33,049 nt of DNA, from positions 1-33,049 of IMG/VR virus record IMGVR_UViG_3300034375_002991; one strand, written 5' to 3'. The stretch comes from a virus. The position numbers were made by a program, and so were the translations under genes. Shown here piece after piece: positions 5,502 to 33,049 of the stretch. Under the pieces are notes generated by a model that was given only the letters and a program-made list of their open reading frames with translations, was not told the DNA's origin and ran no database searches. How positions within the stretch are numbered: position 1 is the stretch's first letter; every line of letters starts with the position of its first letter.

Positions 5502-5586
5502 GCGGGTGTGGTGAAATTGGTAAACACAAGAGACTTAAAATCTCTCGGCTTCGGCTTTGCCGGTTCAAGTCCGGCCACCCGCACCA
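5502..5586 (+). tRNA. tRNA-Leu, anticodon TAA
   Basis: The sequence folds as a class II tRNA. The acceptor stem is GCGGGTG (5502-5508) with CACCCGC (5576-5582), then discriminator A and an encoded CCA (5584-5586). The anticodon stem is AGAGA/TCTCT around the seven-base loop CTTAAAA, giving anticodon TAA, which reads TTA leucine codons. A long variable arm with a GGC-TTCG-GCT mini-hairpin marks leucine, and the T arm is GCCGG-TTCAAGT-CCGGC. Encoded CCA indicates a gene acquired from or adapted to a bacterium that encodes it. It may supplement decoding of a codon rare in the host. It could also mark a former attachment site, but no integrase is visible. Confidence 0.96.
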
Positions 5587-17338: not shown

Positions 17339-17366
17339 TCCCCCTGCTTCGGCAGGGGGATTTTTA
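17339..17366 (+). terminator. Intrinsic terminator of the plus-strand arm
   Basis: TCCCCCTGC (17339-17347) pairs with GCAGGGGGA (17352-17360) around a TTCG tetraloop, followed by TTTTTATT. This is a textbook rho-independent terminator read on the plus strand, 50 bases after the last plus-strand stop. In the minus direction no U-run follows the stem. The minus-strand gene from the right arm ends with TAA at 17366-17364, inside the U-tract. Confidence 0.92.
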
Positions 17367-20300
17367 TTGGCCCCACTCGTTACGGTGCTGGACCAACAAG
17401 GAGCGTAAGTTGGGAGAAATCGTTATGCCGTTGTACATTTCAACAGATGTGCGCCGATGTCGGTCCATAGACTTCTTGAGAGTGTCTGGAGTTATGACAA
17501 CTTTACTTCCGGCGTAACGCCTATTGAACTTCATAATCTCTCTCATCGCATCTTGGTAGCCTTCGTAATCACCCATGCGGTAGGCTATGTATGCCTTACG
17601 TAATGTTTTCGTGCGGCGTTCGCTTATGTTGCGGTCCATACGCTTCGTGACAGCGTTGCGCTCTTGTTCAAATGTGTAGTTGGACGGGGCGAACCCAAAC
17701 ACCTGACCAACCAACTCGCCGGTAGTGATGTCGTCGTAAATAGGATCATTGCGGCGGGTGAAGGCACCGCCGTCTCTAGCGTAGCGGCCAAACGTAGCCT
17801 TGTAGGCGTTAGCTACGGCAGGGGGCAGGAGGTTTTCAATACCACGCTCAACGAACCCTTCCTGCAAGTCGGTAACACCACGAACCAACCGCTTACCGGT
17901 GCTGAGAGCCGGACCACCGAGGTAGAAGCCAATGAACTCTTCCGGGGAGGGCTTAGCGTTATACCTGTTGTCTTGGATCAAGAGGTTGTTGAGGCGCACA
18001 CGAGATGCAACGTCAATACCGAGCAGTTCGTTTATCGGCCCCTTGTACCAACCCTCACCAATATACTTACGTACAATGGTGTCCGCGTCATCTTCCTCGT
18101 CATCTAGGAACATGTTAGCGACCATAGTGAAGATGCCGTATATCGGCACACCATGAATACCGGCGAAGAACAACGCCGACCCATGCACCCCGATAAGTTC
18201 CCGCATGGCTTGCTTACGCATGGCGGGATCAACAGAAGAGTCCAGCATACGGGACGCGCTCTTAAGCATCGTGTAGTACATGTTCATGCCGTAACTCTTG
18301 TACATAAGAGCGACACGGCCAATACCCTGCTGGGCTATGCGGGGCGCTGTCTCAAGCGCAAGGCCACCGTTCAACTGTTCGGTTTGGTACAGGGCTTCGT
18401 CGGCGGCTAGCTGCTCTTTCTGCGCCGAGTCCATAGAACTTGGGTCAACGTACTTACCCTGCGTCTCTGCGAAGTAACGCTCACCGGAGTCCAGACGATC
18501 CAGAATAAGATCAAAGTTAGAGAACATGATCGTCTGACGGTTGAACCGTTCCACTGCGTTGAAAGCGAACGCCGATACGCCGGAGATGGAATCCAGAACT
18601 CTACTGGTTGTACCGCCTTGTGCCTGACGGCCTCCTTCCTCCAGACCCAACTGATCCATAAGGTAAGAGCGTCCAAGATACCCACGCTCCGAAGCCGTCT
18701 TGACCATCGGGGCCATACGACGAAGCTGCGCTATGGTATTCGCATCAAGGTTTAGACCGGACTTGACGGTGTAGTTTCCATCGGCGTCCACATCATAATA
18801 ACTGTCTATCTGGTCAGTGCTTCCAGCCCGCAGCTTGCCGTTCCGCATGGTAGGTAGTGCCGGGGTTATAACAAGTTTGGAGAACTTGGATGCCCGTGCA
18901 ATCGCCGCACCACTGGCCTTTGCGCCGTACTTCGCAGTCATGTAGGGGAACGCAAACAACGGAACCTGAGACATATTGACCATAGCCGAGGATGCGTTGA
19001 ACCCAATGGTGTAGATAAATGCACCTTGGTTAGCCGTCTTATAAAACCGCTCTGCACCCTTGTTCTTGGCCCCGCTTCTCGCGAACTCTGAACGGGCGAG
19101 GAGTTCAGCCCTAACATCGTTGAAGCTGCCCATTAGGGCATCTTTTGTTTTGCCAACCAGTGATTCCGAGGCAGACAACTTCGGCTCTTGCAGTTCGGCT
19201 ATCTCACCGTCCATATCGCGTAAGCGAGCACCGTACTCCAAACGTACTGCCTGACGGCCAATATCATACGCCTTCGTTCTCAGACCGATCAGGGAGTCCT
19301 GTATATACCCCGGCGTGCCTTTACGTCGTTGCAGTGACTTAGCAAAAGAAGTTTCTGGTAGAGCCTCTACAAACAGACGCATGATTTGCTCTTGAACGTC
19401 CACCGGCACGTTGTTGGCCGTCATAACTTTTAGTGTGTCACCAACAAAGGAGGTGGGCGGCGCGTTGCGGAAGTCTTTAACCGCCATCTCCCCATCCACC
19501 GATTCTACCGACCCAGCAGCAACATCGGGATCTGCCTTTACTTCTGCCATCACCCGGTCACGCTCACGCTTGGTGTCAAACATACGAACTACGTATGCTT
19601 CCCGTGGCGACTTCGGGTTCTTCATAGAATAGCTTAGCTTGTAGCGACCCTGACGGATGAGCGGGAAGTAGACTTCTAACCGCCCGGACTCAAACAGCTT
19701 AGCGTAAACTTCATTTTTGAGGCGGGTGGCCGCAGCAGGATCGTTCGCCATAAGTGCGTCGATCTCACCGTAGATAACTTTACGTAGCTTCTCGTACTGA
19801 TCTGCGTAGACTTTACGCATACCGTTGAATACGCGGACCCCACCGGCCTTTTGCACAACGGCCCAGTCGGCGCGTTGCTCGTCCCAAATAGCTGCTAGAT
19901 CGTTGCCACTATCGTCAGTCTTGCCTTCATACGCACTACGGGGTTTCGTCGGGTCTACCTGATAGATAGTGGCACCGTATTCACCGCTGTATATAACCCG
20001 GTCCAGCGCAGCCTTGGCTTCCGCGTGCTTATCCGCCCACGGGACAAAGGTATTGGAGATAAAGTCTGCTACACGCTTATCTGAATCTTGAATAGCACCG
20101 CGCTGCCGCTCGATTAAGTCATGCAACCTGACGCCAATATCTCCGAGACCAGCCCGCATAGCAACGTCACCGAGAGCCTTGGTGCCCATTGATCCGAGCA
20201 GGAACCTCTTCGCTACATCAGCAACACCGCTCTGTAGGAACTCAACAGCTCTGTCCGCGAACCGTTCTCTCTGCTGCTTGGTTATGGGGCTAGAGAAGTT

Positions 20301-23300
20301 CTTCTGTACGTTGCCCACCTTCTGCATCGTAGCCTTGACCCCACTGTAAGTGGAGTTCATCAGAAGTTCCCCTGCGTTTCTATAATCGGGGGCGGCGGAC
20401 AGGATGGAGTCAATCAGAGTATCAGCAGCGTTGAGCGCGGAACCAACCGGCTTGACCTGCATACCCAGCAGCTTTCTTACAAAGTTACCAACGGTGTTCA
20501 TGAACCGTTGCAGGGCGGAGATATTGCTACCATCCGGGTTAAGACCGGCAAGAGTGCGCTGGAACTCAGGGTTAGAGAACGCTTCGGACACAAACTCGTC
20601 TAGGGATGTAGCACCGTAGTAGGTACCCAGCGAATCCTTAACATCCTCGAACAGCTTGGTAAGCTGCTTTGTGACGGGGCTGTTCTTGTTGGCGAGCGTT
20701 GCCGAAACCGCTGCGTGGGTGGCTTCGTGCAGCAGGGTGTGAGGGTTGATGCCATTCGTAGCGTCGAGCTTGATGATGTTGGTCTTGGGGTCAAACAGGC
20801 CAGCCGCAGGAGTGCCATCGGCACCCTTTAATTTATTTACAACCTCTACCTTAGTGTTACCCACGACCTGCGCCATTTTGCGAGCGATCTGCGCTACTCG
20901 CTTATCCTGAGATGTCATGGCGAGCACGTTAAGGGCACCGCTAAGGTCACCGTCTCGAACAGCGCTACTCACGGCAGGGTGTACAGGTAAACCTAATCCA
21001 GCAACGGCATCTGTTACCAAAAGCAGTTTATTTAGGTCTCGTAATTTTTTGGCGTCTTTCCGGTTCTGTTCGCGAGTAGCTTCGGCTTCTTCTCGCTCTA
21101 TTTGTGCCTGTGCCCGCTGATTAAGTTCGCTCTTCGCTGCGTTTTCGGCATTTATCTTGTCTATAAGGTCCAGCGTGCTTTCTTCGCTTGCTTTTATCAC
21201 CTGCGCTTCTTCTTTGGTGATCCAAGCATTTATTTCTGGAGATAGGTTATCTTCCGCCCACCTTAAGGCACGTTCGGCAGATGCCTTGCCGGTGCCTCGG
21301 TACATAGCACTCAACTTCTCCGACAGACCCTTCTGCCTCCCCGTAAATTGGGGAGTTTCGTTAACAACGTCATATATTGCCGAGTACAGACCTTGTATCG
21401 GGTTGCCCAGCTTCATGTAAGTTAGAAACGATTGGCCGTTGAGGTCACGAGTAGTTGTACCTTCAGCTTTTAACTCGCTGATAATGGCTTTATCTTTAGC
21501 AGTAAATGGATCTCTCTGGTCAGCTATCTCTTCTACGTTGTACCGCCCTGTACGCAGCCGCTGCTTATTAACTTCTAGCATAACGCCGCCCGGAGTCCGC
21601 TTCTCCAGATCAGCTATCTCTGCTTCGGTACGCTTCGGACCTGTGAACGCCTGCTTCGGCGCTTCCTTCTTCTCGGTAACTGGTTTCTTTGCGGCAGCAG
21701 TGCGCCTCGGCGTCGGCGTCGGCGCAGCTTTTGGTTTTGGTGCGGCCTCGGGTTCGGGTTCGGGTTCGGGGATTGGCGTTAATGGAGTTCGCTTTCCTCC
21801 CTCTCCTGTAAGAGTTGCCACAACATTGTTTGTAGCAGTGACCAATCGTCCGGCGTCAGCTTCTGTAGTGGTGGGGGCAGCGTCACCAGCGGCACCTCTT
21901 CGTCCTCGTACAGTAGGCGGAACGCGTATTCTACGTCTTGCTGCGTCAGCGTCACTAAGGGAGATGTCGTCCCCGAAAAGAGATAGTTGTTCACCAGTAG
22001 CCTCCGTCTCCGGCACTGCCGCAGCTTCGGTCGCAACGTCGCGAGGTTCGGCAGCAGTGCGCCTCGGTCCACCTCGGCGGGGCGGGAACAGGTCCATCTG
22101 CTCCTCTGGCGTATTCCTAACCAGCCGGTCAATGTTGAAACGAGCAGCCTGACTCGCACGAGGATTTTTGGCGAAGTCAATTAACTGCTGCCTTATTTCA
22201 GGGTCATTAAAGTCCTTACCAGTAATACGTTTACGGATAGGGGCGTTCTTGGGAATCTGCAGGCGGTCAAGTTCTGCTTCACCAAGAATACGCGGCTCTG
22301 GAGCGGGCTCTGCCGGAACCGCCGGGGCAGTACCACGCCGCCCCATGCCGGGGAAAGAAGGCTGTTCAGGTGCGCGAGGAGTAGTGCGCCGCTCGGGAAT
22401 ACGGGCCTCCATCTCCTCAAGCTGCGTAGCTTCGGGTGGCCCAGTAACTACTTCGGGTACTGCTTCCTCTACAGCCGGAGCGGGTCGGCCTGCCGCAAAC
22501 GCATCGGTAGCCCGTGTAATAGTACGTAGCTCGGCGGCAGTGGGCGCAGTGTTGGCAACACCCGCATCAGACAGAGCCGCAGAGAAACGACGTGCGGTGT
22601 TTGCACGGCTAGCCGTAGATAGATCAGACAACACCGAATCGAGAACCTCACCACGACGCTGTTCGGTGGCGGCTTGGCGGGCAGTATCTTGCTGCCCCGC
22701 AATCGTTTCTAGCTCAGATTCGGTACGAAGTTCGCGTGCGGCGGTTTCTTGGGCGCGAGTAGCGGCGGCTTCCTCGTCCGCCATACGCTGAAGTTCGATA
22801 GCATCTTCAAGCTCGTACTGACGCGGGTCCGATACTTGCCCATATCGCGCTTCTTCGGCTATATTGGGTGCAAGCTCTAAATCTGCCTCGGCTGCTACTT
22901 CTTCAGGCGCACCCCTTTCGCCCATCCTACGTAGCGCAGCGGTCTCCTCCCGAACAACTCGCGCAGTTTCAGCCTCTATAGGAAACAGATCGGGCTGTTC
23001 AAAGGCCTCTACATCACCTCTAGCGGCGGCGGCTAATCCTGCACGGTCTCTTTCTGCGGCTAGGTCTACCGGCGGCGTAGGTTGCTGCGGACTAGGTGCC
23101 TCTTCAGTACCGGGGGCAGACGGCCCGCGCTGGCGGCGACCAACCACAAGGTCGATCAAGCCTTGAGTAACAAGGCCCACGCTGCCGCCGATAAGACCTT
23201 CTTCTAGTGTGCCGCCGAAAGTAGCTGCGTCAGGATTATACCCTTGCTCGATGAGGTTTTGCGCTACGTTCTGTGCGGCTTCCTGTGCACCCTCGATACC

Positions 23301-24011
23301 ACCGGATATAAGCGCCCGCTCTACACGATCTCTAGCCCCCTCTATGACCTGCGGGCCGAGTTTGTTAAGCATATCCCCAACAACAGGGATATCACCAATA
23401 TCAAAACCAAGCGCCTTAGCAAACCTACCTATAGGCAATATGTCGAAGGAACCGGGGATTATACCAAGACGGGCGGCGCGGTTACGTTCTTCTAAAGTAG
23501 CACCGGCTTCACGAGCACGTTCACTAGCTTCACCAACACCTGCCCCTATACTAACACCTGCGATAGCAGGAAGGGCGGCTGCACCAAGAGGAGCTAGAGC
23601 AAGAATCCCGGCAACTGAACCGAGACCCTTACCGAACTTAGCTGTAGCTTCTTCCGGGTTGGCTAGGCGCGGCCTTACAAAGTCTGCGACACTCTTAATA
23701 ACGTCGCGGGCAGATGCTTCGCTCTCTTCGCCAAGTGGAGTAATTGCACCCAGCGCCGTGCTTTCGACAAGATCTACAAGACCAGCCCCGGTACCACGAA
23801 AGATGTTACCCAGAGCCGTGGTTTCTTCTGGCTCTTGATACCTAGGAGCATCAAGGAGCGCTTCGCGCTCCTTAGCTAGAGCCTCATCCTCTTCTTTGTA
23901 AACCTGTTCTTGTACGGCGGCAAAAAGCGCCCTCTCCGATGTACCTTCTGGTGCTCGGACGGTGTATATTTTACCGTTTGCAGCCTTAATATCGTACAGC
24001 CTGTTAGCCAT
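17364..24011 (-). CDS. Giant polyvalent/internal virion protein with metallopeptidase motif, 2215 aa
   Basis: This is the last gene of the minus-strand arm. The N-terminal 300 residues hold alanine- and glycine-rich hydrophobic stretches (LAPLGAAALPAIAGVSIGAG), possibly membrane-interacting. A long disordered part follows, rich in Glu, Ala, Arg and Pro with EPEPEPE near residue 750. LLHEATHAAV (His1095, Glu1096, His1099) followed by DEFVSEAFSN (Glu1143) fits a gluzincin-type zinc peptidase, as in the polyvalent proteins described in phages and mobile elements. The last 450 residues (FNAVERFNRQTI onward, then DDITTGELVGQVFGFAPSNY) resemble the LPD38 end domain. By size and place it is probably carried in the virion and ejected with DNA. 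The ATG at 24011 has AGGA upstream. Peptidase activity is inferred. Confidence 0.85.
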   Translation of the reverse strand: MANRLYDIKAANGKIYTVRAPEGTSERALFAAVQEQVYKEEDEALAKEREALLDAPRYQEPEETTALGNIFRGTGAGLVDLVESTALGAITPLGEESEASARDVIKSVADFVRPRLANPEEATAKFGKGLGSVAGILALAPLGAAALPAIAGVSIGAGVGEASERAREAGATLEERNRAARLGIIPGSFDILPIGRFAKALGFDIGDIPVVGDMLNKLGPQVIEGARDRVERALISGGIEGAQEAAQNVAQNLIEQGYNPDAATFGGTLEEGLIGGSVGLVTQGLIDLVVGRRQRGPSAPGTEEAPSPQQPTPPVDLAAERDRAGLAAAARGDVEAFEQPDLFPIEAETARVVREETAALRRMGERGAPEEVAAEADLELAPNIAEEARYGQVSDPRQYELEDAIELQRMADEEAAATRAQETAARELRTESELETIAGQQDTARQAATEQRRGEVLDSVLSDLSTASRANTARRFSAALSDAGVANTAPTAAELRTITRATDAFAAGRPAPAVEEAVPEVVTGPPEATQLEEMEARIPERRTTPRAPEQPSFPGMGRRGTAPAVPAEPAPEPRILGEAELDRLQIPKNAPIRKRITGKDFNDPEIRQQLIDFAKNPRASQAARFNIDRLVRNTPEEQMDLFPPRRGGPRRTAAEPRDVATEAAAVPETEATGEQLSLFGDDISLSDADAARRRIRVPPTVRGRRGAAGDAAPTTTEADAGRLVTATNNVVATLTGEGGKRTPLTPIPEPEPEPEAAPKPKAAPTPTPRRTAAAKKPVTEKKEAPKQAFTGPKRTEAEIADLEKRTPGGVMLEVNKQRLRTGRYNVEEIADQRDPFTAKDKAIISELKAEGTTTRDLNGQSFLTYMKLGNPIQGLYSAIYDVVNETPQFTGRQKGLSEKLSAMYRGTGKASAERALRWAEDNLSPEINAWITKEEAQVIKASEESTLDLIDKINAENAAKSELNQRAQAQIEREEAEATREQNRKDAKKLRDLNKLLLVTDAVAGLGLPVHPAVSSAVRDGDLSGALNVLAMTSQDKRVAQIARKMAQVVGNTKVEVVNKLKGADGTPAAGLFDPKTNIIKLDATNGINPHTLLHEATHAAVSATLANKNSPVTKQLTKLFEDVKDSLGTYYGATSLDEFVSEAFSNPEFQRTLAGLNPDGSNISALQRFMNTVGNFVRKLLGMQVKPVGSALNAADTLIDSILSAAPDYRNAGELLMNSTYSGVKATMQKVGNVQKNFSSPITKQQRERFADRAVEFLQSGVADVAKRFLLGSMGTKALGDVAMRAGLGDIGVRLHDLIERQRGAIQDSDKRVADFISNTFVPWADKHAEAKAALDRVIYSGEYGATIYQVDPTKPRSAYEGKTDDSGNDLAAIWDEQRADWAVVQKAGGVRVFNGMRKVYADQYEKLRKVIYGEIDALMANDPAAATRLKNEVYAKLFESGRLEVYFPLIRQGRYKLSYSMKNPKSPREAYVVRMFDTKRERDRVMAEVKADPDVAAGSVESVDGEMAVKDFRNAPPTSFVGDTLKVMTANNVPVDVQEQIMRLFVEALPETSFAKSLQRRKGTPGYIQDSLIGLRTKAYDIGRQAVRLEYGARLRDMDGEIAELQEPKLSASESLVGKTKDALMGSFNDVRAELLARSEFARSGAKNKGAERFYKTANQGAFIYTIGFNASSAMVNMSQVPLFAFPYMTAKYGAKASGAAIARASKFSKLVITPALPTMRNGKLRAGSTDQIDSYYDVDADGNYTVKSGLNLDANTIAQLRRMAPMVKTASERGYLGRSYLMDQLGLEEGGRQAQGGTTSRVLDSISGVSAFAFNAVERFNRQTIMFSNFDLILDRLDSGERYFAETQGKYVDPSSMDSAQKEQLAADEALYQTEQLNGGLALETAPRIAQQGIGRVALMYKSYGMNMYYTMLKSASRMLDSSVDPAMRKQAMRELIGVHGSALFFAGIHGVPIYGIFTMVANMFLDDEEDDADTIVRKYIGEGWYKGPINELLGIDVASRVRLNNLLIQDNRYNAKPSPEEFIGFYLGGPALSTGKRLVRGVTDLQEGFVERGIENLLPPAVANAYKATFGRYARDGGAFTRRNDPIYDDITTGELVGQVFGFAPSNYTFEQERNAVTKRMDRNISERRTKTLRKAYIAYRMGDYEGYQDAMREIMKFNRRYAGSKVVITPDTLKKSMDRHRRTSVEMYNGITISPNLRSLLVQHRNEWGQ

Positions 24012-24021
24012 CTAGGTATTC

Positions 24022-25863
24022 CTACTTAGAATCAGGCCGTGAACCTACAACCTCCATATCTGGAGCGCCCCCTGTAACAGACCGCCTAAGATCGCTTCGA
24101 AGCCTTTGAAGGTCTTTCACAGCTTGTTCTTTAGCCTTATTCCAATTTGCAGTAACGCGTTTTTCCTCGGCTGCAAGTGCGTCATCTTTTAAGCCCTTGA
24201 CCAAGGTAAGCCCTTCTATCTCTTTGGCTAAGCCCTCATCGTATTTCTGAGATAGTTTTGCTATGCCCTCCTCAACACTTGCAAGTAGATTTAGCCTACG
24301 ACCCATATCAAGAGATTGGAAGTTCATACGAGAGATTGCATTGGCTTCGCTCTTTAACGCAGCCTCAACATTGGCGATATCGGCTTTTGTTTTGTTGCTA
24401 GCTTCAATACCCAATACATCGAATAGACTGTTTATACGTGTCTGCATACCTTGAGAGGCGGATCTCTTAGCCGACTCAGACATTTGTTCAGTTATACCCC
24501 CAGCCGTAACCTGCGCTTTACCGGCTTCAATATCGGCTTCCTCGCGCTGTTTGGCCATTCTGTACAGTGTGTCTAAATCCGCAACCTCCTGCGCCATACG
24601 CCGCTCTTCACCTGCTATCGCCTTCTGACCTAGACGCCCAAACGCCGAAGAGCCGCTTACATAATCAGCAAGGGGGCCGCGTGCTTTCCGTGCTGCAGCC
24701 TGCCGTTTCATCATGGCATCCCTATCGGCTATGTATTTATCATACATAGCGGCACGTTCATTGCGACGGAGCAATGCACCTACACCAGCCTCACGAGCAG
24801 CACGCTCAGCCGCTGTATCACGCTGTAATTGTTTACGCTGATATTGTCCGAGGTCAGTCTGTTCCTGCAATAATTTTTTCCCGAGTTCCGAATCTAAAAT
24901 TCCGCGAGCCTGCACGTTCGGAATAGCGGGAGCTTGAGGGACGGGGGCTGGAGCCGGAGCTGGAGCCTGAGCTTGAGCCTGAGCTTGAGCCTGAGCCTGA
25001 GCTTGAGCCTGAGCTTGAGCCTGAGCTTGAGCCGGAGAGACAGGGGCAGCGGGCGACAACTGGGACATAGCGATTTGGGGTGGCGCGTTCCTGCTTAGGG
25101 CATCCATTGCTGGAGTAAACCCACGCTCTTCAAATCCAAACCGTTCTGTAGGGTCCATTAAACCAGTGGCCCGTCCAACAGCCCCAACAACATCAGCGCC
25201 TACCTTAAAAGGTACATTCGCGGCGTCATATAAAAAGGCGAACGGCTGCGCCATTGACAACCCTACCCTTTGGATACCACGCTTCTCGTTAATAGCTTCT
25301 TTGATTCTAGCTTTTTCTTCTGGTGACGCCGCCGCAAATCGTTCCGGTGTAACGCCTACTTCAGCCAATATTTCGGTAGCTTCGCGCTTGCGACGATCTT
25401 CTTCGCTCTCACCCTTTACCGAATCACCTTCGGCAAAAGTCACCACGCCGCCTTGGGCCATGCGGGCCATATTGGGGGCAGGCTGCGAGGCAATACCCGC
25501 CATCTGCGGGTTCATAGGCATACGTGTAGCGGGACGCTGACCAGAGGCTACACGCTGTAAGTTCTGCTGCTGCGCGGCCTGACGCTGCGCCATAATACCA
25601 CCCACCTGACGACCAAGATCGTCCTTAGTCATGCCAAGAACTTCAGCTTCGCGCTGCTGTTTAATGGTCTGTGGGTTCTGCTGCATGGACATCTCAATGT
25701 CCCGCTTCTTCTCCTGCATCTCTTTGTTGATGCGCTGGAGAGCGAGAAGGTCCAACAGGTCTTGGTTCATCTGATAACGCTGCTTCAATGCACCGGGGTT
25801 GCTCCGGTACGCATCTACTTTGCGCTGAACTTCGTCGTCTATGCTGCCTGCGTATGCTGCCAT
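24022..25863 (-). CDS. Virion-associated low-complexity protein with QA repeat, 613 aa
   Basis: The 613-residue protein starts at ATG 25863 behind AGGA. The N-terminal 130 residues are Gln- and Met-rich helices (KQRYQMNQDLLDLLALQRIN). Then comes MAQGGVVTFAEGDS, a Gly-Gly motif of the type common in aquatic phage structural proteins. Residues near 277-312 form a long Gln-Ala dipeptide run passing into Ala-Pro repeats. The C-terminal half is charged and helical (ERAAREAGVGALLRRNERAA and later coiled-coil-like segments). It is probably an internal or ejected virion protein acting with the 2215-residue neighbour downstream. No enzyme motif is seen. Confidence 0.8.
   Translation of the reverse strand: MAAYAGSIDDEVQRKVDAYRSNPGALKQRYQMNQDLLDLLALQRINKEMQEKKRDIEMSMQQNPQTIKQQREAEVLGMTKDDLGRQVGGIMAQRQAAQQQNLQRVASGQRPATRMPMNPQMAGIASQPAPNMARMAQGGVVTFAEGDSVKGESEEDRRKREATEILAEVGVTPERFAAASPEEKARIKEAINEKRGIQRVGLSMAQPFAFLYDAANVPFKVGADVVGAVGRATGLMDPTERFGFEERGFTPAMDALSRNAPPQIAMSQLSPAAPVSPAQAQAQAQAQAQAQAQAQAQAQAPAPAPAPVPQAPAIPNVQARGILDSELGKKLLQEQTDLGQYQRKQLQRDTAAERAAREAGVGALLRRNERAAMYDKYIADRDAMMKRQAAARKARGPLADYVSGSSAFGRLGQKAIAGEERRMAQEVADLDTLYRMAKQREEADIEAGKAQVTAGGITEQMSESAKRSASQGMQTRINSLFDVLGIEASNKTKADIANVEAALKSEANAISRMNFQSLDMGRRLNLLASVEEGIAKLSQKYDEGLAKEIEGLTLVKGLKDDALAAEEKRVTANWNKAKEQAVKDLQRLRSDLRRSVTGGAPDMEVVGSRPDSK
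24949..25034 (-). repeat. Hexanucleotide repeat encoding (Gln-Ala)n
   Basis: On the plus strand, GAGCCT and GAGCTT hexamers alternate for about 80 bases, flanked by GAGCCGGAGCTG variants. On the coding strand they read CAG GCT and CAA GCT, giving Gln-Ala dipeptides, then Ala-Pro. Mixed hexamers imply repeated slippage in multiples of six bases, which keeps the frame and should make the tract length-variable between strains. Confidence 0.92.
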
Positions 25864-25874
25864 AGTCCTACCCT

Positions 25875-26840
25875 CTAATCGAACAAGCCGCCGATGAAGT
25901 CGCCAACATCGCCAAGAATACTGCTAATACCAGAACCAACAGCACTACCAACAGCACTACCAGCACCACCAAACAGCCTATCGTACAGACTCTGCACTCC
26001 GTAGCTTCCACCTACTATCTGCTCTAGCTGGCTCGGCTCGGCGTAGGTATAGTCTTGCGACTTCAACGGCAGATTCTGGAGCAACGACGCAAGGTAAGTA
26101 TTCTGCTTGTACGGGAACGCCAACTCCTGCTCAAACTGCTTAATATCGGCGGCGATACCTTCACCCTCGATAGCCCGTTGCGCCGCGCCAAGATCAGCCT
26201 GCCTCTGCAGGGCTTGCATACCATATAGGTTAGCGAGTTCCTGTGCGGACTGTTGGCGTGCTTGTTCGGCGTTGAACTGCGCCGCTGCCGCATTATACGC
26301 ATCCGCGTATCCTTTACCTGTAACCTGCGCCGCCTTGTCGAGATACGCACGGTCAAGTTCAGACTCCATAACGGCCTGACGACCGCCGCCATAAGCACCC
26401 GCACGGGACAAACGCCCTGCCTGCTCAATACGCGCAAGATCAGTCTGACGACGAAGTTCATCCAACTGGGGCTGAAGAGCCTGCTGGACATACGGGTTCA
26501 TATAGCTCTGGGCTACACCCTCATCAGTAATAGACTGTGGCGTAAACGCGCCCATCTGTTCGGTCGGAACAGCCAGCCCTGCAAGACCCTGAAACGCCTG
26601 CTGCTGTAGTTGGGACGGACCCGCTGTAAGCTGCCCTGTATATGCTTCGTAAGGCTGGCTTGCGAGCGCCATACCACGACCGAGCATCTCCATGACATAG
26701 GGGCCAGCCCAGTTAGACAGCGAGGACTCAATGCCCGTCTGCGTACCAACAAGATTAAACCCCTGCTGGGCTACGGTGGGGTTAGTTGCTGGAGTAGATA
26801 CCCCAGTCGATTGGGCGGTTCCTGTAGTTCCGTTTGCCAT
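25875..26840 (-). CDS. Conserved-type phage structural protein, 321 aa
   Basis: ATG 26840 follows TAGGAGC. The 321-residue protein contains segments I recall from many marine phage virion modules: AGPYVMEMLGRGMALASQPY, EAYTGQLTAGPSQLQQQAF, YMNPYVQQALQPQLDELRRQ and GRLSRAGAYGGGRQAVMESE. A long Ala/Gln-rich helix follows (YNAAAAQFNAEQARQQSAQE), and the end is glycine- and serine-rich with GSAVGSAVGSGISSILG, possibly able to associate with membrane. The family is usually annotated as hypothetical or as a tail/internal virion protein. It lies in the middle of the ejection-protein block. Confidence 0.82.
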   Translation of the reverse strand: MANGTTGTAQSTGVSTPATNPTVAQQGFNLVGTQTGIESSLSNWAGPYVMEMLGRGMALASQPYEAYTGQLTAGPSQLQQQAFQGLAGLAVPTEQMGAFTPQSITDEGVAQSYMNPYVQQALQPQLDELRRQTDLARIEQAGRLSRAGAYGGGRQAVMESELDRAYLDKAAQVTGKGYADAYNAAAAQFNAEQARQQSAQELANLYGMQALQRQADLGAAQRAIEGEGIAADIKQFEQELAFPYKQNTYLASLLQNLPLKSQDYTYAEPSQLEQIVGGSYGVQSLYDRLFGGAGSAVGSAVGSGISSILGDVGDFIGGLFD

Positions 26841-26849
26841 AGCTAGCTC

Positions 26850-27557
26850 CTACGCAGGTAACATTTTACGTGCGTTAATCTTTTTGCCCTGCTTCTTGTT
26901 GCCAGTGCGGGCCTTACGAACACGGTCCATCATGGCAAACAGCACTTTTGCGCCCGCTTCAGAGTTACCGTTACCGAGGTGGGACACAACGTCCGCAGGG
27001 ACGACAAACTCACCATCACTCAGACGCGCTTCCTGCTGACCATCAATGCGGGCAGGGACTTTATCAGCCATTCCATCACTGTCCCCACCAAGATATCGGC
27101 CACGCGCCATAGTGGCAATGCCTCCGGCGGCGAGAGCGGGAATAGGACGCGTCTGACGGTTTGGGTTAGCCATATTAGCCGCCGCAAGAGCAGCGGGGTC
27201 TAGGGCCGGTGGCGTCCCCTGTCCTTGGGGAACATACTGCACGTCAGTAAAGTAGCGCTGCCCAGAACTACCGGGGCGTCTAGTGGGGTCATTAGTACCC
27301 GGAACACGTTGGCGTAGCACATTATACTCAGGGATATTGGCTTGGTATCCAGCATATGCCCGCTGAGTTTCTGTTAAACCGGGAAAAAGCTGACTGATAC
27401 CGTAGTTAAGAGCCATAGGCCCGAGAGTCTCTAGTAGCTTACCCGAATCTGTGCCAAAAGCGCCCAGCACATCGTCGATCCAAGAGCCGCCGGAAGAGGT
27501 AGCGGCGTAGCCGCTATCCTGCGAATCATAATCTTCGGGATAGAGTTCGTCAGCCAC
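26850..27557 (-). CDS. Phage virion protein with SDGEFVV domain, 235 aa
   Basis: GTG 27557 is preferred over TTG 27569 because TTGGAGG lies five bases upstream; it overlaps the end of the 1601-residue gene by 8 bases. The N-terminal part is acidic, and the middle contains proline and tyrosine stretches (DVQYVPQGQGTPP). The C-terminal part has LAAGGIATMARG, GGDSDGMADKVPARIDGQQE and ARLSDGEFVVPADVVSHLGN, a compact domain I recall from many aquatic phage structural proteins, ending in a basic tail. The function is unknown; adhesion or assembly is possible. The Gly-Gly motif is shared with the neighbouring 613- and 1601-residue proteins. Confidence 0.82.
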   Translation of the reverse strand: MADELYPEDYDSQDSGYAATSSGGSWIDDVLGAFGTDSGKLLETLGPMALNYGISQLFPGLTETQRAYAGYQANIPEYNVLRQRVPGTNDPTRRPGSSGQRYFTDVQYVPQGQGTPPALDPAALAAANMANPNRQTRPIPALAAGGIATMARGRYLGGDSDGMADKVPARIDGQQEARLSDGEFVVPADVVSHLGNGNSEAGAKVLFAMMDRVRKARTGNKKQGKKINARKMLPA

Positions 27558-30500
27558 GCTTGCCTCCAAGAATACTCATAATTTCATCTGTTTTGTCTTC
27601 AACAAGACCACCCTCTGCTGCCGCTAGACCCAAACCAAAGAAGTCTTCAGCATTAAACACCCCAGATTGCTGCGGGGTAGCAAATATATCCTCCGAAGTA
27701 ATCGGATCATAAAAGTATAGCGGGCCTTGTTCAACGTCTAACGTCTTAATAGCACCTCTACCGCCCGGCTCTAACATAGAAGCAAACTGTTGTACGTTCT
27801 GCATCTGCTGCTGGCGTTGTAGTTGTGCGTTCATATTGGCTATCTGGCCCGCTATACCCGTAGTAGCAAACTGCGTAGCAGGGTTGATTTGCGTAGCTTG
27901 ACCAATCTGCTGCCCAGTCTGCTGAGACTGCTGTAGGTTTTGTAGCACGATTTGGTCGTTAATATCTATTACATTATCACCTGTTACATCGTATTGCAGT
28001 TGTTGTGCAGTAAACGGCGCGGGTTCAGACATAACCTCACGCTGTGCAATCAGATCAGTTACAAAATCAATGTCAGCGTCAGTTACCTGCTGCGCGGGCT
28101 TACCAATCAGCGATGTAACACTATCTCTAAAAGCAGCTTGCTCCGCCGCCTGCTGTTCTTGGCGGGAGACTAACGCAGCTTGCTCCGCCGCCTGCTGTTC
28201 TTGGAGGGAGACTAACGCAGCTTGCTCCGCCGCCTGCTGTTCTTGGAGGGAGACTAACGCATTATAAAACGCAGCTTGCTCCGCCGCCTGCTGTTCTTGG
28301 CGGGAGGCTAACGCATTATAAGTTGCTACAGGGAGCCGCTCTTGTGCTCTACCCGCCAGTTCGGACTCAGCATATTGGCCGACCAGACTCTGTACATCAG
28401 GGGGTAACGCATCGAGAAACCCAAGTTCTTCAAAGGCTTGCTGAGCTTCTTCCCACGTTACCGCACGGGGGTCATACAGAGTAGCTAATTCGGTTCCAAG
28501 CGCCTTGGTTAGAACTCCGCTCTCAGCCAGCGACAATGCAGCAAGGTAGTCTGCCTCTTCAGGAGTATATCCTTCCTGCTCAAAGATCTGTGTAGCGTAG
28601 CCACGGTTAACCGTATCAATGACCCGGCCACTAACGGCTGTATCGGGCGTTTCCCCAACAAAACCGCCAAGGTCTTCTTCTGTAAGGGTATACGGAGTCT
28701 GGTCTTCGATAGCCTGATAGGCTTCCTGTGCCTCACCATAGGTAGTGTAGGCATCGTCATTAGCAGCGTCGAGGATATCGGTAGCAGTTTGATAGCTCCA
28801 TGCGCCGTCTTCATCTTCAGAGAAATCAAGGACTTGGCCCTGATCGTCAAAGAAGGAACCCCAACCAAGCGTATCCTTAATAGTCTGCTGCGCCTGTGCA
28901 CGAACGTCCGGGCCAGCATCAGGCGCGTTAGCGTTAGCTACTGCCTCATTGATATCGGGGTTAAACAGAATAACAGCGTTCGCTGCGGGGTTAGAGCTGG
29001 GTTGGGGTTTATTAGCTGCGTACTCTGCCTGCTGAGTCCAGAACTCTTCAGGTATAACGTTGTTGTATGTGTATGTACCGTCCCTAACGGCGCTTAAAGT
29101 CACATCCCCAAGTGTAATAGCGCCTGCGGTACCCGTGCCTGCTAAAGCCCCAAGGAGGGACGCTGCAGCAATATCACCACGCCAGTCCTCGTATACTCCG
29201 CCACGCTGCGTTACAGTCGGATCAATTTGCTCGTGGAAAGCAATCTTCAACGCCGCTGTCGCGCCCTCCTCTATACCTTCAGAAACCCCCTCCGCTCCTA
29301 TACGCGTGGCCGTTTCCAGAATACCTTTAGAAACCCCCTCCGCTCCTTTACGCGTGGCCTTTTCCAGAATACCTTCAGATAGCACAACCAGTGCTTTCGT
29401 ATTAGCACCACTAGCTATGTTTGAGGCAAGTAGGTCTGTAGGCGAGAATATGCGACCAGCAATACCTTCTATCAATGCAGCAGTAAGGCCGGTAGTAACC
29501 GCCGCTTCTTGTGCTTTTTGGTCTGCTAGAACAGGGTCTACACCAAGCTGTATCATCTTGTCGTACAGCTCTTCGTAGGTTTCTCCGGCAGCGCTACCCG
29601 CAGTTTCAAGAACTTGGAGGCCAGCAGCGGTGCCCCATGCACTTGCTCTACCCCACTTTCTAGCCGCTTGGGCACTTAGTTGAGCAGCTTTAGCACCGCC
29701 TTTAACTACAAGACCAACACCACCACCAGCAACCGCAGTTAATGCTTCTGGAAGAATTTCAGTACCAATGAGATTACCGAGGACTGCCCAAGGTGCTTCA
29801 GCTATACCTCCAATTACTGCGTTAGCGGTACCAACTATTCCTGTCGCGTTTTTGACGTCTGTTTTAAAAGTCTTCCACTGTTCTTGGCTTAAATCTGATT
29901 CAGTAATATCACTAAGTGACGACATAGTAATTGCTAACTTAGCGAGGTTAGAACTACTTAGATCTACAGGATTATTTCTACTATTTAGGAATATCTCAAG
30001 AAAATCATTTACACTTTTAAGAGCTTCACCCCCACCACGTAGACCCCAAGCAGCAAGATCTTTTACCTTCCGTGCGCGCTCTTCATAATCTGTGCTAAGC
30101 CCATCTACATCTATATCACCGGTCTCTTTAGCTAGCTGCTCTCGCTCGTTAACAAACTCAGCTACGTTTTTAGACAGATTAATAAGCTGCCGGGTACCCC
30201 AGTCGAGCTTGTTGTACTCTTCCTGATTTATATTCAGGTTACCCGCAGCATCAATGGCCACAACCGGAGCAACTTTAGCTACTTCAGCAAGGGTAGGCGG
30301 AGGTGGGGGTAGGTTTCTTATAGCCGTAGTGCTGTCAGTAAACAGAACGGTACCGTCCGGCTGAATATCGCCAGATATATAGCCCTCAATGGGCTGCTTG
30401 GTTACTGGGTCAATATATACCGCTTTACCGGACGAAGCGTCGTATATCGGCTGCACAGTACGATTTAGCCGTGCATCAAATACCGGCGCACCTAGATTTG

Positions 30501-32355
30501 GGGTTTTGGTGAAGGTTATACCTACTTCTTCACCAACTCGGTTGAATATGGCTAATGCCTCGCCGGAGGCAATATCAGCATCGGTTACACTCTCATCGCG
30601 GGCTATAGAGACGTTGCCGGTAGGCGTTCTGGCTTCAACACCATCCAGATATTGTTGGGCAAGTAACAATACGCCGTCGCTATTGGCCGCAGCAATATCC
30701 CCACCCACAGATGCTTTTACGCTATTAACAAGATCATCAATGTCCTCGATACTGTTAAGTTTAGTATCGACATTCGCTAGTATAACGTCGCCTAGCTTGG
30801 CCCGAATAGTTTCATCTATCTTAGTATCGCGAGCCTCTTGACTAATATCGTTCTGACGACCGGTGGCAAGCCAATGCTGGTACGGATCTACATCTTCGGG
30901 AAGATTATATAGCTCGCGGTATTCTTCGGCTTGGAAATTAGGTATAGTTAATTCACCGTTCTCATCAGCGGAGTAGCCCGTTAGGGCTTCGACCATATAC
31001 TTAGTAGCAACCTCATTTACAGGCTGCATCAGCTCGTCGATGTACTGTTCAGAGCGAATAAGGTCGTCAGTGGCGGTTTTATACTCAGCCGCAGCGGTGG
31101 TGTATTTGGCATCAACAATTTCGTAGCTATCTACAGCGTCATCCAACCGAGCCTTGATAGCGTCGATCTCTGCTAGCCGTGCGTTAGAAGTGGCTTTATT
31201 GGTAATGCTTACGTTAATATCGGCGTTATATTTGTCGATTGCGGCGGTGTATTCGTCGTAGATTTCTTGGACAACGCCGCGGGCTATATCTACTTCTGCC
31301 GCTGCTTGGTTAGCTACTGTGTATTTCTCGTCTACAGCGGCTTGAGCACCGCTGATTTCGTCAATGAGGCGGTCTAAGCCACCCTCTGTTGCGTCATCAA
31401 TAGCTTTTCTTAGCCCCAATATAGCTTGGTTATTGAAGCTGGCTTGAAACGCCTGATACGGATCTGCGCCCGCATACCCAGCTTTAATAGTATCGCTCAC
31501 TACATTAGTAAGCATAGCGCTGCGGAGTCTGGCTTCGTTAGTGTCAGCCGTAAATAACTCGCTATCTGCGATTGCTTCTTTAATAATACCAGTCGTAACG
31601 GCGGCGCTCATAATAGACCCAGCTACAAGGTCTTCATTTATTTCGCCTGTAGTGACGAGTGACGAGATAGCCGCACTAGCGCCGCCCGTTACCATGTCTT
31701 GAACTACTTCGGGTAGTTCTTGGAAGCCCTCTACAAGATCCGATAATTCATTGAATATACTATCTTTTGTAGATAGGAAGGTGTCGTCAAATCCCTCGAA
31801 ATCTATATCTGTGCTAAGTTCATCTACATCTAGAGAGTTACTAAACTCACTTTTTACATAGTCACCTAATTCACTTAACCCGGCACTGGCTGCACCGCTA
31901 AGAGCGCCGTTAAGAAGAGCGGCCCCAATATCCCCACCAGTCAAAGCCGCGCTAACACCCGCCCGAGTAGCACTTGATGCAGCTCTACCAGCAATCTTAC
32001 CGGCTGTTTCACCCGCTGCTTCACCTACATAACCGCCAACAGCTTCACCTGCGATATCGCCAAAATAACCGCCAGCATAAGACGCAGTAGCAGCCAGCAG
32101 CATGTCGCCTATATCACCACCATTTCTAGCGGTGTTGGCAGCCTGCGCGGCAGCTATGATCCACGGATTACCAGTTAGCCCGGCACCGATTGAGATAATT
32201 GCGCCGAGCGGGTCTTCAGCTATACCCTCAATAACGCCGCCAACGACATCAATAACCGGCGATAGGATGTCGTCAACGACAAATTCGGCTACGTCGGATA
32301 TGGCATCACCAACCCAACTTACGACACTACCAACTGCGTCTGCTACGAAACCCAT
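27550..32355 (-). CDS. Very large repeat-rich virion protein, 1601 aa
   Basis: The N-terminal 170 residues are glycine-, alanine- and valine-rich (VIEGIAEDPLGAIISIGAGL, then GEAVGGYVGEAAGETAGKIA), a pattern suited to membrane insertion. Residues about 330-450 form a coiled-coil-like stretch. A 16-residue repeat (KGILETATRIGAEGVS) is tandem near 993-1025, and a Gln/Ala repeat (VSLQEQQAAEQAA) occurs four times near 1348-1408. DVTGDNVIDINDQI (near 1450) matches a dockerin/EF-hand-like calcium loop. The end has AAEGGLVEDKTDEIMSILGG. It has the size and composition of an ejected inner-virion protein, possibly one that builds a channel through the cell envelope, but no family could be assigned. ATG 32355 follows an AGAGAG site. 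Confidence 0.82.
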   Translation of the reverse strand: MGFVADAVGSVVSWVGDAISDVAEFVVDDILSPVIDVVGGVIEGIAEDPLGAIISIGAGLTGNPWIIAAAQAANTARNGGDIGDMLLAATASYAGGYFGDIAGEAVGGYVGEAAGETAGKIAGRAASSATRAGVSAALTGGDIGAALLNGALSGAASAGLSELGDYVKSEFSNSLDVDELSTDIDFEGFDDTFLSTKDSIFNELSDLVEGFQELPEVVQDMVTGGASAAISSLVTTGEINEDLVAGSIMSAAVTTGIIKEAIADSELFTADTNEARLRSAMLTNVVSDTIKAGYAGADPYQAFQASFNNQAILGLRKAIDDATEGGLDRLIDEISGAQAAVDEKYTVANQAAAEVDIARGVVQEIYDEYTAAIDKYNADINVSITNKATSNARLAEIDAIKARLDDAVDSYEIVDAKYTTAAAEYKTATDDLIRSEQYIDELMQPVNEVATKYMVEALTGYSADENGELTIPNFQAEEYRELYNLPEDVDPYQHWLATGRQNDISQEARDTKIDETIRAKLGDVILANVDTKLNSIEDIDDLVNSVKASVGGDIAAANSDGVLLLAQQYLDGVEARTPTGNVSIARDESVTDADIASGEALAIFNRVGEEVGITFTKTPNLGAPVFDARLNRTVQPIYDASSGKAVYIDPVTKQPIEGYISGDIQPDGTVLFTDSTTAIRNLPPPPPTLAEVAKVAPVVAIDAAGNLNINQEEYNKLDWGTRQLINLSKNVAEFVNEREQLAKETGDIDVDGLSTDYEERARKVKDLAAWGLRGGGEALKSVNDFLEIFLNSRNNPVDLSSSNLAKLAITMSSLSDITESDLSQEQWKTFKTDVKNATGIVGTANAVIGGIAEAPWAVLGNLIGTEILPEALTAVAGGGVGLVVKGGAKAAQLSAQAARKWGRASAWGTAAGLQVLETAGSAAGETYEELYDKMIQLGVDPVLADQKAQEAAVTTGLTAALIEGIAGRIFSPTDLLASNIASGANTKALVVLSEGILEKATRKGAEGVSKGILETATRIGAEGVSEGIEEGATAALKIAFHEQIDPTVTQRGGVYEDWRGDIAAASLLGALAGTGTAGAITLGDVTLSAVRDGTYTYNNVIPEEFWTQQAEYAANKPQPSSNPAANAVILFNPDINEAVANANAPDAGPDVRAQAQQTIKDTLGWGSFFDDQGQVLDFSEDEDGAWSYQTATDILDAANDDAYTTYGEAQEAYQAIEDQTPYTLTEEDLGGFVGETPDTAVSGRVIDTVNRGYATQIFEQEGYTPEEADYLAALSLAESGVLTKALGTELATLYDPRAVTWEEAQQAFEELGFLDALPPDVQSLVGQYAESELAGRAQERLPVATYNALASRQEQQAAEQAAFYNALVSLQEQQAAEQAALVSLQEQQAAEQAALVSRQEQQAAEQAAFRDSVTSLIGKPAQQVTDADIDFVTDLIAQREVMSEPAPFTAQQLQYDVTGDNVIDINDQIVLQNLQQSQQTGQQIGQATQINPATQFATTGIAGQIANMNAQLQRQQQMQNVQQFASMLEPGGRGAIKTLDVEQGPLYFYDPITSEDIFATPQQSGVFNAEDFFGLGLAAAEGGLVEDKTDEIMSILGGKRG
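28133..28312 (-). repeat. Four copies of a 42-bp repeat with 12-bp spacer
   Basis: GCAGCTTGCTCCGCCGCCTG plus 22 more bases recurs at 28133, 28175, 28217 and 28271. The first three are in direct tandem. GCATTATAAAAC (28259-28270) separates the third and fourth, and GCATTATAAG follows the fourth, so the ancestral unit was probably 54 bp and lost 12 bp in some copies. All lengths are multiples of three. The protein unit is VSLQEQQAAEQAA, with or without YNAL. Confidence 0.93.
29275..29379 (-). repeat. 48-bp tandem repeat, two copies plus start of a third
   Basis: ACCTTCAGAAACCCCCTCCG plus 28 more bases (29275-29322) is repeated at 29323-29370 with four changes, and ACCTTCAGA begins a third copy at 29371. 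It encodes the 16-residue unit containing ILETATRIGAEGVS in the 1601-residue protein. Confidence 0.92.
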
Positions 32356-32840: not shown

Positions 32841-33049
32841 CTACTTCAAAGCCTCAAATAACGCCGCCGAGTACACATTACCCATACCCGCTGCCAAGCT
32901 AAGAACAACGCCGTCTGGTGCCGGGCAACCCATAGACAAAAATACCGAGTCACGCTCAGTTCTATTAGGGATACTAGGGATTAGCCCTTTGGCAATGTCG
33001 TCAAACAACATAGTTGTTTCCAAAAGACCGCTGGCACCCATCGTATGTC
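32841..33049 (-). CDS. Truncated hypothetical gene at the right edge
   Basis: A minus-strand frame ends at TAG (32843-32841), two bases before the next ATG, and is open to the edge of the window. ATG 33041 could be a start (MGASGLLETTMLFDDIAKGL), but no stop lies between it and the edge, so the gene may begin outside. Visible residues include SVFLSMGCPAPDGVVLSLAA and end in ALFEALK. The family is not recognised. It is the first gene visible of the minus-strand transcript. Confidence 0.6.
   Translation of the reverse strand, partial: HTMGASGLLETTMLFDDIAKGLIPSIPNRTERDSVFLSMGCPAPDGVVLSLAAGMGNVYSAALFEALK

Follow-up and report, generated by a model that had tools for sequence, protein, structure and literature searches.

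A conserved zincin-like metallopeptidase domain in the largest predicted ejection protein of a short-tailed phage

Introduction

Zincins are common among the peptidases that act as toxins and effectors. In phages, polyvalent proteins contain zincin metallopeptidases (MPTases) more often than any other domain, and MPTases also occur in the virion RNA polymerase (vRNAP) of N4 (Iyer et al., 2017, PMC5512222). The N4 vRNAP is packaged unprocessed (PMC5512222), its C-terminal region is required for encapsidation (PMC8472413), and the role of its C-terminal domain (CTD) was stated as unknown in a 2025 structure preprint (PMC12633501). The 33,049-base linear virus record analyzed here (the window) encodes a protein of 2215 residues in which an HExxH motif, HEATH, occurs only once. 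This raises the question of whether the protein carries a working metallopeptidase and, if so, where and on what it would act.

Results

Gene and neighborhood

The protein is encoded by a single open frame on the minus strand (Table 1), which begins 10 bases past the end of the 613-aa gene. A sequence-only reading of the window had given no strand; the frame of 2215 residues, HEATH at 1095-1099 and EFVSEAF at 1139-1145 were all found as it described them (the motifs by position). That reading also placed the gene in an ejection block, which the relatives support. In those on longer contigs, the upstream genes of the same direction include one for a structural protein of the virion (phrog_3287, E 4e-66 and 2e-66) as well as tail fiber genes, followed in order by products of 158 residues, a large protein, and products of 244, 276 and 592 residues and the giant; the same series is present in the window. 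As expected of gp16/TEP-type proteins, the block ends with the giant, its largest gene, which faces the replication operon. Similarly, N4 gp50 closes its virion block facing genes on the opposite strand, and the giant of RHph_TM29 is the last large gene of its block, with only small genes preceding the opposite strand. The upstream virion and tail fiber genes, the common series, and the placement in N4 and RHph_TM29 therefore indicate a virion/ejection block, and we infer that the 2215-aa protein sits in the virion.

The second large protein of the block (1601 aa) had no match in named phages. At residues 278-300, the 613-aa protein (24022-25863, minus strand) consists of nothing but (Ala-Gln) repeats, 23 residues in all. 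A frame cut by the end of the window (32841-33041, minus strand) encodes the C-terminal end of a beta-ketoacyl synthase-like protein whose gene stands in the virion block of these phages (also L068:10848-11966; L069:10260-11372). It is 67% identical to a relative of 372 aa that has PF02801/PF00109; an acyltransferase is found near the place of this gene in LASTA, Skulduggery, JC1, and RHph_TM29. Elsewhere, the window has a tRNA-Leu (TAA) among the early genes (5502-5586, plus strand) and a cell wall hydrolase (PF07486; 1730-2167, plus strand) that is probably the endolysin.

Table 1. Features of the 2215-aa gene and its block in the window. Mean identities are against 13 full-length relatives.
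Feature	Position	Strand	Basis or remark
Whole gene, 2215 aa	17364..24011	-	Last and largest in virion/ejection block; convergent with replication operon
Residues 1-60, short N-terminal segment	23832..24011	-	Low identity, 22%
Residues 61-330, Gly/Ala-rich, hydrophobic at 126-162 and 272-290; candidate membrane-active segment	23022..23831	-	Hydropathy; 37% mean identity
Residues 331-990, hypervariable low-complexity linker	21042..23021	-	24% mean identity, composition
Residues 991-1235, zincin-like metallopeptidase domain, core 1061-1185	20307..21041	-	Profile A3, AF2 model, VIA alignment to N4 vRNAP C1
HEATH, residues 1095-1099: two His ligands (predicted), catalytic Glu1096	20715..20729	-	Motif, conservation
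Glu1139, most likely third zinc ligand (predicted)	20595..20597	-	Acidic in 18/18 across groups
Glu1143, ligand proposed by the sequence-only reading	20583..20585	-	Kept in family; replaced in N4, phiKMV-like, PhiM1, P184
Residues 1236-1445, LPD39-like segment	19677..20306	-	A4 profile; LPD39 in relative L052
Residues 1446-2202, PLxRFG (tail-700) domain	17406..19676	-	NF032893, 285 bits, curated cut-off 100
613-aa block partner, same operon upstream	24022..25863	-	Gene of about 592 aa at same place in G002
321-aa block protein	25875..26840	-	Weak PHROG 'DNA ejection protein' match, E 0.003; 59% identical syntenic relative
239-aa block protein	26850..27569	-	48% identical syntenic relative; matches RHph_TM29 EVB31_085 at 5.8e-5
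1601-aa block protein, hydrophobic segments; probable second large virion protein	27550..32355	-	
9-bp hairpin then T-run between convergent operons, terminator-like	17339..17360	.	

Domain organization

The C-terminal half ends in a domain that scores above the curated cut-off of NCBIfam NF032893 (tail-700/PLxRFG; E 1.1e-84). By the A4 profile, the preceding segment aligns with the Pfam LPD39 regions of the Skulduggery and Atu_ph08 proteins, and in the relative L052 a Pfam LPD39 domain follows shortly after the zincin (E 6e-20). An LPD38-like C-terminal part had been proposed; no Pfam LPD38 match was obtained at E<=1, and LPD39-like and PLxRFG parts occupy this region. The N-terminal part had been read as disordered, which fits residues about 331-990 (hypervariable); the Gly/Ala-rich hydrophobic stretches are more than simple disorder. 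The N-terminal 330 residues have no match in named phages. No RNA polymerase family match was found anywhere in the full protein, and the T7-like RNA polymerase domain that precedes the zincin in N4-type vRNAPs is absent. The term "polyvalent", which calls for at least two unrelated effector domains in a single chain, is weakly earned: one catalytic domain was recognized, no second was found, and the N-terminal 990 residues have no domain assignment.

Zincin motif and conservation

The HExxH pattern appears in 0.35% of same-composition shuffles of the protein. Relatives were gathered from IMG/VR using the whole protein and the zincin alone as queries, and loss of HExxH, named beforehand as grounds for rejecting a peptidase, was looked for among them: H1095, E1096, and H1099 are unchanged in 38 of 38 distinct relatives. 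Of 37 sequences, 36 have E1143 and 34 have E1139, with Asp at 1139 in the other three. Judged from these alignments, conservation is stronger proof that the HEATH motif is real than its rarity in shuffles. Mean identity to the 13 full-length relatives is 67% in the zincin core, 48% in PLxRFG, and 42% in the LPD39-like segment, with the N-terminal hydrophobic part and the linker below these (Table 1). The zincin core is the best-conserved part of a large and otherwise fast-changing protein, which fits the expectation for a working enzyme.

Pfam names no family for the domain. Single family members gave weak Pfam matches to SprT-like, DUF6782, and Tox-MPTase4, which are fold-level hints only. 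Neither genome contigs, scanned with the zincin alignment, nor plasmids yielded a relative. Three relatives (L039, L049, L050) have two HExxH motifs per protein, possibly tandem peptidase domains.

Predicted fold and third zinc ligand

An AlphaFold2 (AF2) model built from an alignment of 32 zincins (mean pLDDT 81.5) places a helix, three strands, the HExxH helix, and a later helix bearing E1139 and E1143 in that order (H53-65, E70-74, E87-90, E95-99, H106-122, H128-144, H153-162). This agrees with the description of polyvalent-protein MPTases by Iyer et al. (2017): a three-stranded sheet with a helix before it and two after, HExxH on the first of the two C-terminal helices, and a Glu on the second (position 1139, where one of 18 representatives has Asp).

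Foldseek alone returned no significant PDB match for either the zincin or the C-terminal model. When its candidates were re-aligned with VIA, the top rank went to residues 2134-2366 of the N4 vRNAP (9pnr; Z 7.8, rmsd 4.1, 161 residues), at a score below the Z of 8 under which a match can reflect a common arrangement. The matched N4 stretch falls exactly on the C1 domain (2124-2375), in which its authors noted an HExxH motif (PMC12633501). SPRTN (5.8) and other zincins followed, and the fold neighbors include effector peptidases. Among the 24 predicted viral proteins in BFVD that the zincin model matched at E<=0.001 are crAss-like proteins, a phi14:2 structural protein, a phiKMV-like internal core protein, and 'internal protein D' from a Bordetella phage; matches to two virion RNA polymerases were weaker (E 0.0017 and 0.048). 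The proposal of a gluzincin-type zincin domain is supported by HExxH conservation, the AF2 fold, and the N4 C1 match.

Its choice of Glu1143 as the third ligand fared less well. Eighteen representatives covering every group were aligned; none lacks either His or the Glu of HExxH, and position 1139 is acidic throughout (17 Glu, 1 Asp). Position 1143 is Glu in 13 of the 18; it is Tyr in L052, Trp in P184, N4, and SPCB_043, and Gln in PhiM1. Because 1139 is acidic across all groups and 1143 is replaced in several, the alignment makes E1139 the more likely third zinc ligand.

Kinship with ejection proteins of other phages

Searched against PDB, the zincin profile finds a 1337-aa internal virion protein (9sfn_G, E 3e-8) and PhiM1 gp48 (8vb2_A, E 1e-4). 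It also finds SPCB_043 (phiKMV-like), the core protein of Maculvirus FE11, the vRNAP of Klebsiella P184, crAss-like cr53_1 gp56, and RHph_TM29 EVB31_083, and in each of these five the one HExxH is that of the zincin. T7 gp16 and SP6 gp37 did not match the profile. By hhalign, kinship of the zincin is clear for SPCB_043 (P 97%, E 7e-11), and for N4 it is mainly structural because the profile comparison gives only P 58% over 51 columns.

RHph_TM29 EVB31_083 (2328 aa, unannotated) has the same architecture: behind its zincin (A3 E 7.7e-15), the C-terminal module of the window protein runs on until the chain ends. The phage has a similar DNA polymerase, and identity in the common parts is about 26-33%. 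N4 gp50 has HELVH and a Glu at the 1139 position in C1 and a large helical domain after the zincin, and its gene is the last of the ejection operon; in contrast to the window protein, an RNA polymerase lies ahead of its zincin, and its C2 domain may be unrelated to PLxRFG. SPCB_043/9sfn_G and PhiM1 gp48/8vb2_A also carry the profile zincin with Glu at 1139 and are encoded by a gp16-like last large ejection gene, but they are shorter (1263-1337 aa) and lack PLxRFG.

In PhiM1 gp48 (L058:2198-5989), unlike the window protein, the zincin domain is inserted in a hub and has been named endolysin-like. Residues 268-528 of the PhiM1 tetrameric ejection protein (TEP) were termed endolysin/exotransglycosidase-like (PMC11440229); the profile zincin, at 379-511 with HEAAH at 385, overlaps them. 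On the strength of this profile match, the label deserves re-examination. A model of residues 1030-2215 of the window protein was middling (pLDDT 68.7), and its best PDB match was the TEP in the PhiM1 pre-infection ejectosome (8vb2_A; Z 7.4, 334 residues, rmsd 20.8), which gives only hints that parts of the two may correspond. This VIA match spans both sides of the PhiM1 zincin, residues 356-907 of one chain. A match of CapRel to model residues 425-479 covered 50 residues and was judged too small.

A metallopeptidase slot in PLxRFG giants

Skulduggery, LASTA, and Pavtok are isolates whose giants end in PLxRFG, and the only HExxH in each lies 1084-1194 residues from the C-terminal end; in the window protein the distance is 1121 residues. 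The chance of the three placements is about 1e-4, a figure computed after the data were seen. The same slot holds HExxxH in douglas 12A4 and a JAMM-like motif in Atu_ph08. The latter, HNHPSNTHLSVAD (L061:12384-13361), is unsupported by Pfam and counts here as no more than a motif. Membership of the Skulduggery zincin in the clade of the window protein was rejected (hhalign P 1%), and the LASTA and Pavtok zincins were missed by the A3 profile. The HExxH placements in giants outside the zincin clade suggest that some metallopeptidase is wanted beside LPD39-PLxRFG, whatever family supplies it.

These PLxRFG/DarB-like giants resemble the window protein in their C-terminus, gene order, and position of the metallopeptidase motif, and Pfam finds LPD39 in Skulduggery and Atu_ph08. 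They differ in length (3,000-5,000 aa), in the helicase and methylase of Skulduggery and Atu_ph08, and in having a slot zincin outside the clade or, in Atu_ph08, a JAMM-like motif. The DarB-like giant of JC1 (HEAFH motif) was detected in virions by 51 unique peptides (PMC9144972), but its C-terminus does not match that of the window protein.

Discussion

Our best explanation, which we consider probable, is that a short-tailed phage carries an active zincin in its largest and last-ejected ejection (internal virion) protein, and that this zincin cuts a conserved substrate after ejection. By position, and partly by domains, the counterparts of the 2215-aa protein would be phiKMV gp37, the PhiM1 tetrameric ejection protein, and the N4 virion RNA polymerase. 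Residues 991-1235 would form the peptidase, with H1095, H1099, and most likely E1139 binding zinc and E1096 serving as the base. The protein would be packaged intact and exit the capsid with the DNA or just before it. Its Gly/Ala-rich hydrophobic N-terminal segments and PLxRFG module would hold it in the envelope, and the zincin would cleave its substrate after ejection. A component of the ejectosome, either the protein itself or a partner, is our tentative choice of substrate; it is ranked above a host envelope or cytoplasmic protein, which we think slightly less probable, because conservation above that of the rest of the protein would be surprising in a domain facing changing host defence.

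The zincin may instead be a processing protease that cuts its own chain or neighboring virion proteins, at assembly or after ejection, splitting the N-terminal part from the LPD39-PLxRFG part; we regard this as plausible though short of probable, and its after-ejection form overlaps the best explanation. The domain sits right at the junction of the variable N-terminal part with the C-terminal module, unrelated HExxH motifs in Skulduggery, LASTA, and Pavtok lie at the same distance from the C-terminal end, and Iyer et al. (2017) proposed self-processing for polyvalent proteins, citing P1 DdrB (PMC5512222). However, N4 vRNAP is unprocessed when packaged (PMC5512222), and recombinant gp50 showed no degradation (PMC12633501). 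The PhiM1 match also covers both sides of the zincin, which counts against cutting if that chain is continuous, and no conserved cut site was noticed in the hypervariable linker. A host protein, whether of defence or of the envelope, cleaved by an injected effector at entry is a possibility we rate a little lower. Zincins are frequent among toxin and effector peptidases and the fold neighbors include SPRTN and effector peptidases, but the zincin is the most conserved part, unlike the expectation for a defence-facing effector, and is common to phages with very different N-terminal parts. This option was listed by Iyer et al. (2017; PMC5512222).

Two further readings appear improbable. A cell-wall enzyme that opens peptidoglycan is suggested by database names of relatives ('endolysin domain', 'exotransglycosylase') and by the naming of PhiM1 TEP 268-528 (PMC11440229), but no lysozyme, SLT, or amidase Pfam match was found in the zincin proteins. 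This role is unlikely because the predicted fold is that of a zincin and two related PLxRFG giants have separate N-terminal wall enzymes (SLT in one, Hydrolase_2 and M15 in the other) besides the metallopeptidase slot. A non-catalytic relic retained for structure is equally hard to credit: metal binding and activity in the family are predictions from sequence, which leaves room for it, but the catalytic residues are all kept in all distinct sequences and conservation peaks at the active site.

Zincins in polyvalent proteins are already described (Iyer et al., 2017), and the window protein is another such member: it shares with that family an HExxH zincin in a large phage protein with LPD domains, and it differs in having no further recognized catalytic domain. 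The main text of that study has no mention of phiKMV, gp16, or ejection (PMC5512222). A search of the openly available literature found no paper that ties a zincin to the ejection proteins of phiKMV or PhiM1 and no statement of the E1139 assignment.

Short-tailed phages that are otherwise unrelated (the lineage of the window, phiKMV-like, PhiM1-like, Maculvirus, N4-like, and crAss-like) could share one zincin family as a catalytic component of their ejection machines, in some of them mistaken for an endolysin, and this zincin could perform a proteolytic step of genome delivery that is missing from current models of podovirus infection; we hold this whole reading to be nearly as probable as not. 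One conserved zincin joins the N4 vRNAP CTD, with no stated role, and the PhiM1 region that carries a cell-wall label. The vague idea of peptidases in injected phage proteins can thereby be tested by changing a single residue in cultivable phages with solved structures. If the zincin is active, proteolysis would be an overlooked step in phage DNA delivery.
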